Source: Acidobacteriota bacterium (GTDB lineage: Bacteria > Acidobacteriota > Terriglobia > UBA7540). Taken from it: a DNA stretch of 6,888 bases. The position numbers and the translations under genes are program-made. The stretch covers positions 1 to 6,888 of the forward strand of contig PLWR01000322.1 in the NCBI GenBank assembly GCA_003165615.1, written 5' to 3'. Of the stretch, positions 1,932 through 6,099 are shown one piece after another. Under the pieces are notes generated by a model. It was not told the origin of the DNA and searched no databases. It saw nothing but the letters and a program-made list of their open reading frames with translations. How positions within the stretch are numbered: the first letter of the stretch is position 1; the number at the start of each line of letters is the position of its first letter.

Positions 1932-2084
1932 CCATCGTTTCGTTGGCTGCCTATCGCGCTTCCTTTGTCCGCTTTCATTCAGGTATCGTACAAGGCGTGA
2001 TAGTTCGCTGCTGCGCTCGGGAAACGCGGAGTGCCAGTTTGTGTACGGGTAGGTCCAGCGAAGAATAGCAATCATGAGACCTCG

Positions 2085-3719
2085 ATGAGTGAACCGGATC
2101 GACTGTTATTGAGCGGGGACGAAGCGGTGGCTCTGGCTGCCCGCGACGGGGAGATCGCTCTGGGCACGGGATATCCAGGAACGCCCTCCACGGAAATTCT
2201 GGAGAGTTTTTCCCGCCTGGGAGGCCGCGCCCAGTGGGCTCCCAATGAGAAGGTCGCCCTGGAGGTGGGGCTGGGGGTCGCTTATACCAACGCCCGAGCC
2301 CTGGTCACGATGAAGCACGTGGGCCTGAACGTGGCCGCCGATCCGCTTTTCACCGCTGCCTACACCGGTGTCACCGGCGCTCTGGTGGTGGTCTCGGCTG
2401 ACGATCCGGGCATGGCCTCAAGCCAGAATGAACAGGACAATCGCCGCTACGCCGTGGCGGCGGGAGTGCCGATGCTGGAGCCCGCGGACTCCCAGGAAGC
2501 CTATGACTTCACCCTGCTGGCCATTCGCATCTCGGAGCGATGGGGAATTCCCGTGCTCCTTCGCCTCACCACCCGCGTCTGCCACTCCAAGACCGTTGTG
2601 CGTCCTTCAGGAGCCCGGGCGTCATCGAATCAAGCCCCGGTAACGTTCGTCCGCGACATCAAAGGTCGCGTGATGATCCCCGCTTACGCCCGCCCTGCCC
2701 ATCGCCGGCTCCGGGAAAAGCTCGCGCGTATGGAGGAATGGAACGACGCCGAAGGGCCGAACCGGGAAACGGACGGCAACCGCTCAGTGGGGATCATCAC
2801 TTCCGGAATCACCTTCATGCACGCCCGCGAAGCGGCGCCGGAAGCGGCGGTGCTGAAGTTAGGCATGACCCACCCCCTCCCTCTGGAAACCATCCGCCGT
2901 TTTGCCCGGAGCGTGTCCTGTTGCATCGTCCGTGAAGAGGGAGATCCTTACCTGCTGGAAGCTATTCGCGCCGCTGGCCTGAAGGTGGAAGGGAAGCCGG
3001 AAGCGTTCCGCTTTGGCGAATTGGATGTGGATCGCGTCAAGCGTATTCTCACTGCTGACGCATCGCCGCAACCGGTTCCACCGCCGGGGAAGCCTCCCGA
3101 ATTGTGCCAGGGTTGCCCGCACCGCTCGGTCTTCACAGCTCTGCGCAACCTGGATTGCATTGTGGCCAGCGACATTGGTTGTTACACGCTGGCGGTGCTG
3201 CCGCCCTTCGAGGCCTGCGACACTTGCGTCTGCATGGGAGCCAGCATCGGCGTGGGGCTGGGCCTAAGGCACGCGCTGCCGCCCGAGCAAGCTCGCCGTG
3301 TCGTCAGCACTCTGGGTGACAGCACCTTTATTCATAGCGGCATCACGGGCCTGGTGGAGATGGTTTACAACCCACCGAAAACCGGCCACGTGGTGATTAT
3401 TCTCGACAACGGAACCACGGCCATGACCGGCTTGCAGGAGCACCCCGGAACAGGGCGCACCCTGGAACACCAGCCCACGGGCAAAGTCGTCATCGAAGAC
3501 CTGGTGCGATCACTTGGCATTACCAACGTTCATATTACCGATCCGACAATTAATCCCGCTGCCTTCCAGGAGTTGGTAGCTGCCAGCCTTGCCCGTGGAG
3601 ATCTCACGGTGATTGTGGCCCGCCGCAACTGCCTGCTGGCGGCGGGCAGTATCAAGGCGTATGAACGCGCCGCGGCGCGCGAGGGAATACCGGAGAACTG
3701 CGTTGAGCAACACGACTAA
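2085..3719 (+). CDS. iorA: Indolepyruvate:ferredoxin oxidoreductase, alpha subunit, lacking the C-terminal ferredoxin domain
   Basis: This is the thiamine-diphosphate subunit of the enzyme that converts an aryl pyruvate plus CoA to the aryl-acetyl-CoA and CO2, passing electrons to ferredoxin. From the ATG at 2085 it has 544 residues. The N-terminal pyrimidine-binding domain carries TGYPGTPSTEI (28-38) and NEKVALE (54-60). A central transketolase-C-like domain follows. The pyrophosphate-binding domain has the family signature CQGCPHR (C341, C344), DIGCYTL (363-369), CDTCVCMGASIG (378-389) and the ThDP motif running from GDS (411-413) to DN (441-442). IorA proteins usually have about 600 to 650 residues and end in a ferredoxin-like domain with two CxxCxxC motifs. 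Here the chain stops about 26 residues after ARRNC, with no such motif. A GTG at 2031 would add 18 residues of non-family sequence and is less likely; the ribosome-binding site for 2085 is weak. The gene overlaps iorB. Confidence 0.93.
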   Translation: MSEPDRLLLSGDEAVALAARDGEIALGTGYPGTPSTEILESFSRLGGRAQWAPNEKVALEVGLGVAYTNARALVTMKHVGLNVAADPLFTAAYTGVTGALVVVSADDPGMASSQNEQDNRRYAVAAGVPMLEPADSQEAYDFTLLAIRISERWGIPVLLRLTTRVCHSKTVVRPSGARASSNQAPVTFVRDIKGRVMIPAYARPAHRRLREKLARMEEWNDAEGPNRETDGNRSVGIITSGITFMHAREAAPEAAVLKLGMTHPLPLETIRRFARSVSCCIVREEGDPYLLEAIRAAGLKVEGKPEAFRFGELDVDRVKRILTADASPQPVPPPGKPPELCQGCPHRSVFTALRNLDCIVASDIGCYTLAVLPPFEACDTCVCMGASIGVGLGLRHALPPEQARRVVSTLGDSTFIHSGITGLVEMVYNPPKTGHVVIILDNGTTAMTGLQEHPGTGRTLEHQPTGKVVIEDLVRSLGITNVHITDPTINPAAFQELVAASLARGDLTVIVARRNCLLAAGSIKAYERAAAREGIPENCVEQHD

Positions 3720-4218
3720 GGTAACCAATATCGTGATTGCCGGCCTGGGCGGACAGGGAGTGCTCAAGGCTTCCGATATCGTCGCCGATGTGGCGTTCCG
3801 CGCCGGCCTCGACGTGAAGAAGAGCGAAATCCACGGCATGAGCCAGCGCGGTGGCTCGGTGACGAGCGATGTCCGCTTTGGGGAAAGAGTGTACAGTCCC
3901 ATGGTGCCCGCAGGAGAGGCCGACTACCTCGTGGTCCTGTCACCTGATCAAGTCGAACCCAACCGCTGGCAATTGCGCGAGGGTGGCACTTTGATTACAC
4001 CCGCCGCGATTGCGCAGGGCGCCTTGCGCGACAAGCGGAGCCTTAACGTGGCGCTGCTCGGCTGCTTAAGCGTCAGCCTCCCATTTCCCGAATCCGCCTG
4101 GCTGGACGCTATCCGCCAGAACCTGGCGCCGAAGCTGCATGCCTTGAACTTGCAGGCGCTCGCCATCGGCCGCGCCGCAGCGCAGGGCGGGGCGGGGGAG
4201 GCGAAGGCAAGCAAGTAA
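3703..4218 (+). CDS. iorB: Indolepyruvate oxidoreductase, beta subunit
   Basis: The product is the gamma-type 2-oxoacid oxidoreductase subunit that pairs with IorA. From the TTG at 3703 it has 171 residues. The glycine loop GLGGQG (14-19) and the signature EIHGMSQRGGSV (42-53), followed by VRFGERVYSP, are diagnostic of the family. I chose TTG because GGAG lies 7 nt upstream (3692-3695) and because the product then begins right before the conserved TNIVIAG strand. An in-frame ATG at 3661 would add 14 basic residues and is less fitting. The gene overlaps the end of iorA by 17 nt in another frame, so translation of the two is probably coupled. The chain is somewhat short: the segment between the REGGTL strand (92-97) and SLNVALLG (113-120) is compact compared with typical members of around 190 residues or more. 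It is probably functional. Confidence 0.9.
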   Translation: MSNTTKVTNIVIAGLGGQGVLKASDIVADVAFRAGLDVKKSEIHGMSQRGGSVTSDVRFGERVYSPMVPAGEADYLVVLSPDQVEPNRWQLREGGTLITPAAIAQGALRDKRSLNVALLGCLSVSLPFPESAWLDAIRQNLAPKLHALNLQALAIGRAAAQGGAGEAKASK

Positions 4219-4358: not shown

Positions 4359-4502
4359 CCGGCTCCGCCGCCCGCTCTGCGGAAAGGCTCCGAACATGTG
4401 AAAAAATTGAATTTGGACCTGTTTTCAACTGTGTAAAGCATTGAAAATGCGTGGTGCTGAAATCGTTATAACCAATTTTTTCACACGTTCTCCGCCTTTC
4501 CG
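4359..4502 (+). repeat. Left REP-like inverted repeat, split by a 97-bp insertion
   Basis: The outer 29 bp (4359-4387), one CTCCG copy and CCTTTCCG (4495-4502) together rebuild a repeat matching the complement of the right-hand copy with one mismatch. Everything between is the nested MITE-like element. Confidence 0.8.
4393..4489. mobile_element. 97-bp MITE-like element nested in the left REP repeat
   Basis: The ends AACATGTGAAAAAATTG (4393-4409) and CAATTTTTTCACACGTT (4473-4489) are inverted copies matching at 16 of 17 positions. The element is flanked by a 5-bp direct repeat, CTCCG (4388-4392 and 4490-4494). Removing the element and one CTCCG restores a perfect hairpin identical to the intact right REP copy, which is near-proof of insertion. 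The interior is AT-rich, has no coding capacity and contains small foldbacks (GCATT/AATGC at 4438-4450; TTTTCAA/TTGAAAA at 4422-4447). The terminal G/C pairs could belong to either the element or the duplication, so a 99-bp element with a 3-bp duplication (TCC) is an alternative reading. The transposase that moved it is not in the window. Confidence 0.85.
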
Positions 4503-4529
4503 ATCGCGCTCCATAGAAATTGTTTCCGG

Positions 4530-4544
4530 GGAGGCTGCGCCTCC
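4530..4544. repeat. Left subterminal hairpin of the RAYT unit
   Basis: GGAGGC (4530-4535), loop TGC, GCCTCC (4539-4544) is a perfect 6-bp hairpin just before the transposase start codon. Bases 4531-4544 match the complement of 5109-5122 exactly. It may be a recognition hairpin, or it may hide the translation start. Confidence 0.6.
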
Positions 4545-4553
4545 AACATTCTC

Positions 4554-5102
4554 ATGGCCACGATTTCCAGGGACAATCCGTGTCTCTCCATCACCAGTGT
4601 GGCGCACGACCGTCTCCCGGTGTTCCGCACCGACGCCAACAAGAAAATCGTTTGCGCGGCTTTGGACGAGGCCCGCCACTCGGGAGGGTTCGCGATTTTC
4701 GCCTATGTCATCATGCCCGACCACCTACACATCATCACGGACGGGACGCTTAAGCCTAGCGACACCTTGCGATTCTTAAACGGTATTTCCAGCCATCGAG
4801 TGATCGGCTATCTCAAGGAGAACAATCACACAGCCTCGCTCGCCAAGCTGCAGGACGCCCCGAAAGCCCGCGGCCACGCGCACTCGTTGTGGGATGGGCA
4901 CTCGCACGCTTTGCCGCTATTTAGCGAGAGCTTCTTCATGCAGCGGGTACATTACATTCATCAGAACCCGGTGCGAGCGGGATTGGTGGAGCGTGCCGAG
5001 GATTATCGCTGGTCGAGCATCCGGTGTTGGAACCGGTGGCCGCAGGAGGACGAGCCGCTCAAGATGGATTTGGATAGAATCACTTGGCGGAAGCCTCGAT
5101 GA
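4554..5102 (+). CDS. REP-associated tyrosine transposase (RAYT; Y1/HUH family)
   Basis: The product is a 182-residue single-strand DNA transposase of the IS200-like Y1 superfamily. Such proteins nick and join REP hairpins. The metal-binding motif HLH is at 57-59 in MPDHLHII. The catalytic tyrosine is probably Y134 in VHYIHQNPVRAGLV, followed by the family signature EDYRWSS (149-155). The N-terminal strand ending LPVFRT (21-26) is also typical. The length is normal and the motifs intact, so it is likely active or recently active. The ATG at 4554 lies 10 nt after one hairpin and the stop 7 nt before its partner; no ribosome-binding site is evident, as expected for a tightly self-limited mobile gene. 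It separates iorAB from the downstream module and is the likely agent that spread these REP repeats in the genome. Confidence 0.9.
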   Translation: MATISRDNPCLSITSVAHDRLPVFRTDANKKIVCAALDEARHSGGFAIFAYVIMPDHLHIITDGTLKPSDTLRFLNGISSHRVIGYLKENNHTASLAKLQDAPKARGHAHSLWDGHSHALPLFSESFFMQRVHYIHQNPVRAGLVERAEDYRWSSIRCWNRWPQEDEPLKMDLDRITWRKPR

Positions 5103-5108
5103 TTTGGC

Positions 5109-5122
5109 GGAGGCGCAGCCTC
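5109..5122. repeat. Right subterminal hairpin of the RAYT unit
   Basis: GAGGC (5110-5114), loop GCA, GCCTC (5118-5122) forms a perfect 5-bp hairpin 7 nt after the transposase stop. It is the inverted partner of the left subterminal hairpin (14 of 14 bases). Confidence 0.6.
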
Positions 5123-5154
5123 GGCTGAAAAAAAGAGGGTTGAGATGACCCGCC

Positions 5155-5196
5155 CGGAAAGGCGGAGCCTTTCCGCAGAGCAGGCGGCGGAGCCGG
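5155..5196 (-). repeat. Right REP-like inverted repeat, intact
   Basis: The first 21 bp fold as CGGAAAGGC (5155-5163), loop GGA, GCCTTTCCG (5167-5175). The remaining 21 bp carry a second copy of GGCGGAGCC (5186-5194; first copy 5161-5169). It is the uninterrupted partner of the left repeat and lies past the transposase stop codon, where it may also end the transcript. Confidence 0.8.
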
Positions 5197-5298: not shown

Positions 5299-5329
5299 GG
5301 CATCAATACTACGGGAAGAGGTGTGCCAG

Positions 5330-5833
5330 TTGAGCGTCGCGGTAGCGGTCTTAAACAATTTCGGAAATGACCAGTGGAATGCAGATGTGTATGACACCAT
5401 GGCATTAGCATCACGTCTTTCCACCCTTGTGAAGGATCGTTCCAAAACCATAGGCATCTCGTATCGTCTTTACGGTCTTAATTCCAAGCTTAATGCATTA
5501 TTCAAACAAATATATGCAAGACTCGAAGGCCCGGCAGGGGAAGAAAGGGTATTCACGCCGGAGGAAACCCAAGATGCAATACGCTCTCTGCGAAAATTAT
5601 GCGGGTTACTGGACACTCTTTTTGAAGCTGGAAGGCGCAGCAGGCTGACGAATAATTCCTTGACCGCCAGTTGGCTCAATAGCATTCATGTTTACAGTGA
5701 TGAACTTCAGGAGCTGGCACAGATTATTGAATTGACGTTGGATGAGTATCACCTGAAATTCGTATATGAAAGGGCTTCGAAGGAAAGAGAATCTGGAGAC
5801 GTGTTCGATATTAGCCAAATTGAGATTAAGTAG
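5330..5833 (+). CDS. Unknown 167-residue helical protein, candidate antitoxin of the RelE-like toxin
   Basis: I do not recognise this family. The TTG at 5330 is chosen because AAGAGGTG (5316-5323), nearly a full Shine-Dalgarno sequence, ends 6 nt upstream; a GTG at 5321 lies inside that site and an ATG at 5399 would cut away 23 residues. The chain looks almost wholly alpha-helical: predicted helices lie near 18-38, 43-65, 78-101, 112-134 and 135-152. There is no signal peptide, membrane segment or metal-binding motif. The C-terminal tail (about 150-167, KERESGDVFDISQIEIK) is charged and ends with a beta-prone stretch, the kind of tail that can wrap a toxin partner. The gene is AT-richer than its neighbours, has its own promoter-operator and ends 9 nt before the RelE-like gene. 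It is much longer than common antitoxins, so the antitoxin role is only an inference from position. Confidence 0.8.
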   Translation: MSVAVAVLNNFGNDQWNADVYDTMALASRLSTLVKDRSKTIGISYRLYGLNSKLNALFKQIYARLEGPAGEERVFTPEETQDAIRSLRKLCGLLDTLFEAGRRSRLTNNSLTASWLNSIHVYSDELQELAQIIELTLDEYHLKFVYERASKERESGDVFDISQIEIK

Positions 5834-5842
5834 GCGTTTCCA

Positions 5843-6099
5843 GTGCCCCTCCCAATCAAATTCACCGGCACACCTTACAGATACCTCCAATCCCTCGACA
5901 AGCCAACAAGAAAGAGAATCGTCGAAAAGCTCAAGGCCATCGCAGAAGCGCCATTGGATCCACGTTTGTCCTACCCCCTTTCCGGCAGCACCAAGAGAAG
6001 CAGCCGAGTTGGAAAATACAGGATTTTATTGGAAATAGATCCAACATATTATGGGTTTCAGACATAGGGCCGCGAGGACAGATTTATCGACAAGTTTGA
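5843..6099 (+). pseudogene. RelE/ParE-family toxin gene with a single frameshift
   Basis: From the GTG at 5843 the first 68 residues follow the RelE/ParE pattern: a helical hairpin SLDKPTRKRIVEKLKAIAEAP (17-37), then DPRLSYPLSG and the strand RVGKYRILLEID (55-66). In frame the product stops at 6067 after an aberrant tail (YYGFQT). Moving two bases forward after about 6045 gives ILWVSDIGPRGQIYRQV and a stop at 6097-6099, which is the expected last strand of the family (compare the common 'V.DIGHRGEVYR'). One base is therefore missing, or two are extra, between about 6041 and 6048. The intact protein would have about 86 residues. RelE/ParE toxins are ribosome-dependent RNases or gyrase poisons; the frameshift removes the last strand and probably the activity. 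A sequencing error is possible. The ribosome-binding site is weak, which suggests translation coupled to the upstream gene. Confidence 0.75.

Follow-up and report, generated by a model that had tools for sequence, protein, structure and literature searches.

Loop-duplicating insertion of a MITE with IS1182-type ends into a REP hairpin tip of a RAYT unit

Some members of the IS1182 family of insertion sequences (IS) are reported to use palindromic targets (Siguier et al., as cited in PMC5678879 and PMC4923244). In the portions of these two papers drawn on here, IS1272 and TnSha1/2 of staphylococci, which belong to this family, use hairpins of differing sequence as targets, and IS1272 replaces the stem-loop and leaves no duplication. 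An outcome in which the loop is duplicated appears in the same portions only as a hypothetical path: the legend to Figure 13 of PMC5678879 gives, as possible path c, a joining event at the loop that duplicates nothing but the loop. Short derivatives of the family are on record as well. The part of PMC3852290 used here lists ISMac2-related IS1182 MITEs of Methanosarcina acetivorans with lengths of 160 bp (14 copies) and 169 bp (7 copies), along with size columns (26 and 4; 25 and 0) for terminal repeats and direct repeats, the column order being our interpretation. REP palindromes, for their part, receive insertions of IS3, IS110, IS4, IS256 and IS5 according to the main text of Tobes and Pareja (2006; PMC1525189), and in REPtron and TIRtron units, as presented in the portion of PMC3733652 used here, a RAYT-like gene is flanked by inverted repeat copies.

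The RAYT unit and its split left hairpin

We analysed a window of 6,888 nucleotides (the whole stretch of DNA under study) in which the gene for a REP-associated tyrosine transposase (RAYT) is flanked by two copies of a palindromic repeat in opposite orientations (4359-4392 and 5163-5196, 34 nt, 97%). Here we confirm and identify a MITE with IS1182-type ends, lodged at the tip of the left REP hairpin, whose loop it has duplicated. The features of the unit are, from left to right:

4359..4392, plus strand: the part of the RAYT unit's left flanking repeat that precedes the insertion; 34 nt, complementary to 5163-5196 at 97%
4380..4387, plus strand: left arm of the split REP hairpin, CGGAAAGG
4388..4392, plus strand: left copy of the target-site duplication CTCCG; a duplication at the same offset is seen in two sets of element pairs
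4393..4489, plus strand: MITE of 97 bp, non-coding, GC 33%; relatives cover at least 90 of its 97 bases at 77-87% identity
4393..4409, plus strand: left terminal inverted repeat, AACATGTGAAAAAATTG, complementary to the other end at 16 of 17 positions
4473..4489, minus strand: right terminal inverted repeat; its outermost 24 bases agree with the right end of the complete IS1182 element L195 at 20 of 24
4490..4494, plus strand: right copy of the target-site duplication CTCCG
4495..4502, plus strand: right arm of the split REP hairpin, CCTTTCCG
4554..5102, plus strand: RAYT, 182 aa; NF047646 at 89.3 bits (cut-off 80), PF01797 at 24.3 bits (cut-off 23)
5155..5175, minus strand: intact partner hairpin CGGAAAGGCGGAGCCTTTCCG, the empty site
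5163..5196, minus strand: right flanking repeat of the RAYT unit, inverted copy of 4359-4392

The original prediction described a 97-bp non-coding element with 17-bp inverted ends flanked by the 5-bp repeat CTCCG, and this description is exact to the base: the ends are complementary at 16 of 17 positions, and CTCCG is an exact direct repeat at both element edges (4388-4392 and 4490-4494). With a GC content of 0.33 against 0.58 for the window, the element has room for at most 32 codons and is entered only by mechanical frames that cross its edges. A simple scan found no promoter-like or terminator-like sites within it, and an Rfam scan of the window at gathering scores gave no match. Excision of the element and one repeat was predicted to restore the hairpin. 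Indeed, 4380-4392 joined to 4495-4502 gives CGGAAAGGCTCCGCCTTTCCG, which is identical to the reverse complement of 5155-5175 at 21 of 21 bases, and this identity confirms that the window carries both the filled site (left) and the empty site (right). The insertion anatomy, comprising the ends, the duplication and the split hairpin, is confirmed as real.

As single-stranded DNA, the intact right 21-mer is predicted to fold into nine pairs with a 3-nt loop, which reads GGA on that strand and TCC on the other. Because the intact hairpin folds in this way, CTCCG, at positions 9-13 of the 21, takes in the loop and the base pair that closes it, with its midpoint on the hairpin axis. The block 4380-4502 with its insert is predicted to form one long stem (-27.2 kcal/mol vs a shuffle mean of -11.5, z -6.6), and the 97-bp element alone is palindromic (DNA fold z -2.9).

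Inside the hairpins, a second inverted repeat pair flanks the RAYT gene (4520-4544 and 5109-5133, 25 nt, 84%). Elsewhere in the window lie a minus-strand frame for an aldo/keto reductase with a C-terminal 4Fe-4S domain (520-1722) and two overlapping frames (2031-4218) with the domains POR_N plus TPP_enzyme_C and POR, which resemble the two subunits of an indolepyruvate ferredoxin oxidoreductase. Downstream of the RAYT unit, at 5321-6067, a 170-aa frame without Pfam match is followed by a 74-aa ParE-like frame (PF05016 at 21.3 bits, below the cut-off of 23); the two are possibly a toxin-antitoxin pair.

The proposed order of events, with the MITE younger than the RAYT unit, is upheld by the nesting and by empty sites in relatives. 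RAYT matches at E 1e-60 or better were found in 5 of 399 Terriglobia genomes, at six loci with 55-70% protein identity. At these loci, 24 hairpins match the type CGGAAAGG..CCTTTCCG within four edits and are uninterrupted, the only state that was counted, filled ones having been checked via the absence of ends; no element end was present at any of the six loci at up to one mismatch. Because of these 24 hairpins and the lack of ends beside them, the REP does not carry the 97-bp segment as a constant component, and the case in which every copy of the RAYT unit has it in its left REP was not found. The insertion is younger than the RAYT unit. Among the 120 RAYT relatives listed, those with an organism in the source name come from Terriglobia MAGs (P0004, 88%; P0055, 73%; P0085, 68%), with one further relative from Pyrinomonadaceae (P0117, 67%); the host is thus probably a member of Terriglobia (Acidobacteriota). 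At one locus (L206, 784-2317), eleven CGGAAAGG..CCTTTCCG hairpins form two arrays around a single RAYT gene.

That uninterrupted hairpins occur also speaks against reading the whole of 4380-4502 as one mobile unit, in which the REP arms would be the outer part of a longer inverted terminus and no pre-existing hairpin would have been entered. CTCCG, moreover, is a direct and not an inverted repeat, with its TCC oriented as in the single loop; outer arms vary among elements with similar ends, even inside one genome (GGTGTCAGG vs GTAGGGGCG in G002). In G001, and partly in G002 and G167, the flanks outside the ends are alike between copies, so composite units may spread there, but for the window we consider a single unit of this extent very improbable.

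Recurrence of the ends and their probable link to IS1182 transposases

A search of relatives for the ends, proposed with the original prediction, found them there, far above control. The 11-base end TGTGAAAAAAT had 309 occurrences in seven genomes preselected for having matches, where its reversed control had 3, and the 14-mer AGCTGTGAAAAAAT occurred 342 times (summed over the table) in 25 of 151 Terriglobia genomes, a sample drawn by class around G002, with a control of 0. A BLAST search with the 97-mer gave matches in 6 of 200 Terriglobia genomes at E 0.01. Near-full-length relatives (at least 90 of 97 bases, 77-87%) occupy at least nine places in four of these 200 genomes (three each in G002 and G171, two in G167 and one in G183), nine being a lower bound from the part of the first-look candidates that was scored. 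Because the strict paired pattern with exact ends was present in 1 of 399 Terriglobia genomes, the family is visible mainly by tolerant searches. With one genome per species, the paired-end pattern was found in three stretches, from Bryobacteraceae, Terriglobia and Verrucomicrobia MAGs; it had no exact match in viral contigs, and the 97-mer had no match in a plasmid collection at E 1e-5.

Fifty-five paired elements span 64-246 bp including four outer bases, and their interiors differ between genomes. One genome, G085, holds 194 copies of the 11-base end. Its elements of about 238 bp (L146, 413-651; L149, 627-864; L152, 387-623) have ends of the same kind, and inside them are a central hairpin and two inverted REPs resembling those in the RAYT unit of the window, which amounts to a reverse nesting.

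A 5-bp duplication at a fixed offset is a signature of DDE transposases. We compared the five bases that lie outside the four bases preceding TGTG on either side of paired elements. The first set comprised 55 pairs, window included, from the matches listed (both ends within one mismatch, identical flanks collapsed). At least four of the five bases matched at this one offset in 21 of 55 pairs, vs 0-5 of 55 at twelve other offsets, and the mean match was 2.71 of 5 vs 0.85-1.67. A second set was drawn, without the window, from genomes with AGCTGTGAAAAAAT matches listed, on condition that one end or both were exact and neither had more than two mismatches; 60 loci yielded 34 pairs (13 from G080, 15 from G056, three from G046 and one each from G037, G147 and G135), and the 26 loci that gave no pair were dropped. 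Here at least four of five bases matched in 13 of 34 pairs vs 0-2 at other offsets (mean 2.65 vs 0.41-1.71). The G001 pairs reached four or more matching bases in only 2 of 18. The short target duplication of the window, CTCCG occurring twice at an offset that is fixed in both sets, is consistent with a DDE transposase. Chance as the source of the anatomy is excluded, mainly because related 97-mers occur in other genomes and unrelated copies have a duplication at the same offset.

The G001 family (e.g. L097, L103 and L109) has TGTGAAAAAATT ends and GGGACTGAC..GTCTGT interiors and lies between inverted CCGC..ACGG flanks, without a clear duplication. It is perhaps a composite unit that spread jointly with its REP.

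The duplication bears directly on another possible origin, in which a RAYT-type single-strand transposase would have moved a REPIN-like unit and the nesting would be one of REP in REP. To our knowledge, RAYT and IS200-type movement produces no target duplication, an absence that is a defining feature of REPINs mobilised by a RAYT, so the fixed-offset duplication argues against such movement. The element is short and palindromic (z -2.9) and sits inside a RAYT unit, and the same-kind ends of G085 enclose REP pairs, all of which a REPIN-like origin would accommodate. Yet when 30 of 34 RAYT places were scanned, an end pair was found only at L043, where it lies some 1 kb away from the gene instead of enclosing it, and one weak single end match at L036. 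Similar ends, moreover, border DDE elements with IS1182 transposases, and we therefore give a RAYT-driven origin very little credence.

The evidence for an IS1182-type element, which the original prediction had left unnamed, begins with G171, in which the end AACGTGTGAAAAAATT is followed by a transposase start at the contig edge, 39 residues of which can be read just inside the end. This 39-residue start recurred in 28 places in 18 of 299 genomes. By hand count, an end within two mismatches of TGTGAAAAAAT lies upstream in 23 of the 28 places, at about 1.4 kb in the case of L172, and none lies upstream of the match in the other five (L171, L173, L174, L182 and L185).

Five long end pairs were found: L191 (1835 bp), L192 (3028 bp), L193 (1661 bp), L195 (1689 bp) and the shorter L198 (1124 bp). 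The first four are complete elements with open frames of 497-843 aa that contain DUF772 and DDE domains, and their transposases score 376-417 bits against the IS1182 model NF033551 (cut-off 270). Exact duplications flank L191 (CTATG) and L192 (CCTCG), and none was found at L193, L195 or L198, which leaves two of the five long pairs with one. The ends of L195 give the best match to the MITE ends, at 16-20 of 24 bases, and the single G171 end agrees at 17-18 of 24; those of L191, L192 and L193 agree at only 11-15 of 24, having mainly a GTGAA core in common. The search proposed at the outset, for a complete element with the same ends and a transposase, was successful in relatives, most clearly with L195 (up to 20 of 24, IS1182) and least with L191-L193 (just 11-15 of 24). 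We found no element with an interior similar to that of a full IS and of this MITE alike, and because of this the IS1182 assignment rests on ends and duplication: judged by sequence, the similar ends on relatives' complete elements point to IS1182 as the putative family.

Two other candidate partners were set aside. The inner frame behind a single end at L071 is by eye an ordinary non-transposase gene, and DUF772 genes, found at eight places in five of seven genomes, had no such ends adjoining, bar one weak match in L159.

Taken as a whole, the 97-bp segment is very probably a MITE of an IS1182-type IS that, with transposase provided in trans, entered the hairpin at its axis, so that loop and closing pair are now present twice. 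The segment would be a non-autonomous derivative of such an IS, whose two AACRTGTGAAAAAATTG ends would have been recognised by an IS1182-family DDE transposase supplied in trans. Insertion staggered by 5 bp, on the symmetry axis of the RAYT unit's left REP hairpin, would then have duplicated the loop and closing pair (CTCCG) and left the hairpin arms on either side. We infer that this host had an IS1182 partner acting in trans, and that recognition of the hairpin depended on its structure, for example as an extruded cruciform, and not on its base sequence.

Insertion position and the hairpin axis

A further question is whether insertion at the hairpin axis is a property of these elements. For each pair, the empty site was rebuilt around the duplication and its palindromy scored per axis offset. 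The mean score of the first set was 2.40 at offset 0 vs 0.18-0.95 at 56 other offsets, and a score of 6 was reached in 7 of 55 pairs at the axis vs 0-2 at other offsets. These seven strong cases (the window, L034, L043, L069, L134, L119 and L124) include the window, which prompted the test, and three hairpins of one type (L043, L069 and L134), and in L119 and L124 another axis scored higher. The three insertions of one type lie in GTAGGGGCGAGG-CGGCG-CCTCGCCCCTAC-type hairpins, which occur empty at 12 places in three of four genomes (at most three mismatches; control 0). The complete IS L191 also sits on a hairpin axis, with its exact CTATG duplication between GGCGGT and ACCGCC.

Shuffling of flanks was applied to 38 pairs, G001 being left out, in an analysis to which L029 had been added by hand to give 56 pairs. 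Right flanks shuffled within genomes gave 1.62 vs the observed 2.42 (p 0.021), a modest difference under a control that is strict because hairpins are repeated inside a genome; flanks shuffled across genomes gave 0.81 (none of 5000). There was no excess at the axis in G085 (14 pairs) or G001 (18 pairs) and no centre preference in G080 and G056. The axis score of the second set was 1.0, under the 1.09 of the best other offset, with strong cases numbering 1 of 34 (in G135).

In an exploratory test on G080, G056 and G085, set up after the sequences had been viewed, the duplicated 5-mer formed a hairpin arm in 9 of 42 cases at the site, in 8 at each neighbour position and in 0-4 elsewhere. Several insertions in G080 and G056 (within L221-L260) adjoin or enter the arm of ATTCCCCTC..GAGGGGAAT-type hairpins, off axis. 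The insertions of G002 and G167 in GGTGTCAGGTACC were kept out of the main hairpin-targeting evidence because GGTGTCAGGTACC is poorly supported as a high-copy REP (one-mismatch counts vs control of 7/3 in G002, 3/3 in G167, 16/8 in G171 and 2/3 in G183).

The target could also be chosen by a weak CNNNG base preference of IS1182-type elements, in which case the axis insertion would be a chance hit; this account is compatible with the MITE identification. The duplications of the non-G001 pairs with at least four of five bases matching all end in G (20 of 20) and mostly begin with C (14 of 20), and the lack of centre preference in G085, G001, G080 and G056 fits the same account. It is harder to reconcile with the axis excess of the first set, which comes from hairpins of differing sequence, or with the position of the complete IS L191, and we regard a base preference with chance placement as rather unlikely.

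Insertion at the hairpin centre has support in some lineages and is not shared by all. We tentatively entertain, at somewhat less than even chances, that in some acidobacterial lineages an IS1182-type transposase reads hairpin shape and joins at the loop, duplicating just the loop region, and that other lineages with same-kind ends use the hairpin arm. If true, the family would form a natural series in which the strand-joining position has shifted within one kind of structured target, and REP hairpins would be a standing supply of targets for IS1182-type elements. The structural target preference as such is putative.

Comparison with described systems

For a MITE in a REP hairpin, the window provides the filled and the empty site to the exact base, with the likely transposase family named, and the same kind of end is recurrent across Terriglobia, one 14-base form being present in 25 of 151 genomes. 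Should the preference for the hairpin tip be structural, it would offer a route to studying the way in which folded DNA is read by DDE transposases, and it would account for the fact that elements of one mobile system gather in REP hairpins, the products of another.

IS1182 MITEs and palindrome targeting are already known. An IS1182 MITE in a REP hairpin was found in none of the titles and abstract starts of the literature searched, most subscription papers lying outside it. The related complete elements share similar ends and family transposases with the IS1182 family (NF033551), and exact duplications of 5 bp flank two of the five long pairs, whereas the window element is without a transposase. 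In being a short non-autonomous IS1182 derivative it resembles the ISMac2-related MITEs; those, however, belong to an archaeal host, and the portion of PMC3852290 used here draws no link to REP hairpins. Insertion into REP palindromes is shared with the IS of Tobes and Pareja (2006), but IS1182 is absent from the main text of PMC1525189. The RAYT unit that was entered is itself like the REPtron and TIRtron units in the portion of PMC3733652 used here, with its RAYT gene between inverted repeat copies.

The contrast with published work is in the outcome, loop duplication at this locus vs the stem-loop replacement published for IS1272. In the window both arms of the stem survive on either side of a duplicated loop and closing pair, unlike in replacement of the IS1272 type. 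As far as the legend to Figure 13 of PMC5678879 describes it, path c is nearly the outcome seen here.
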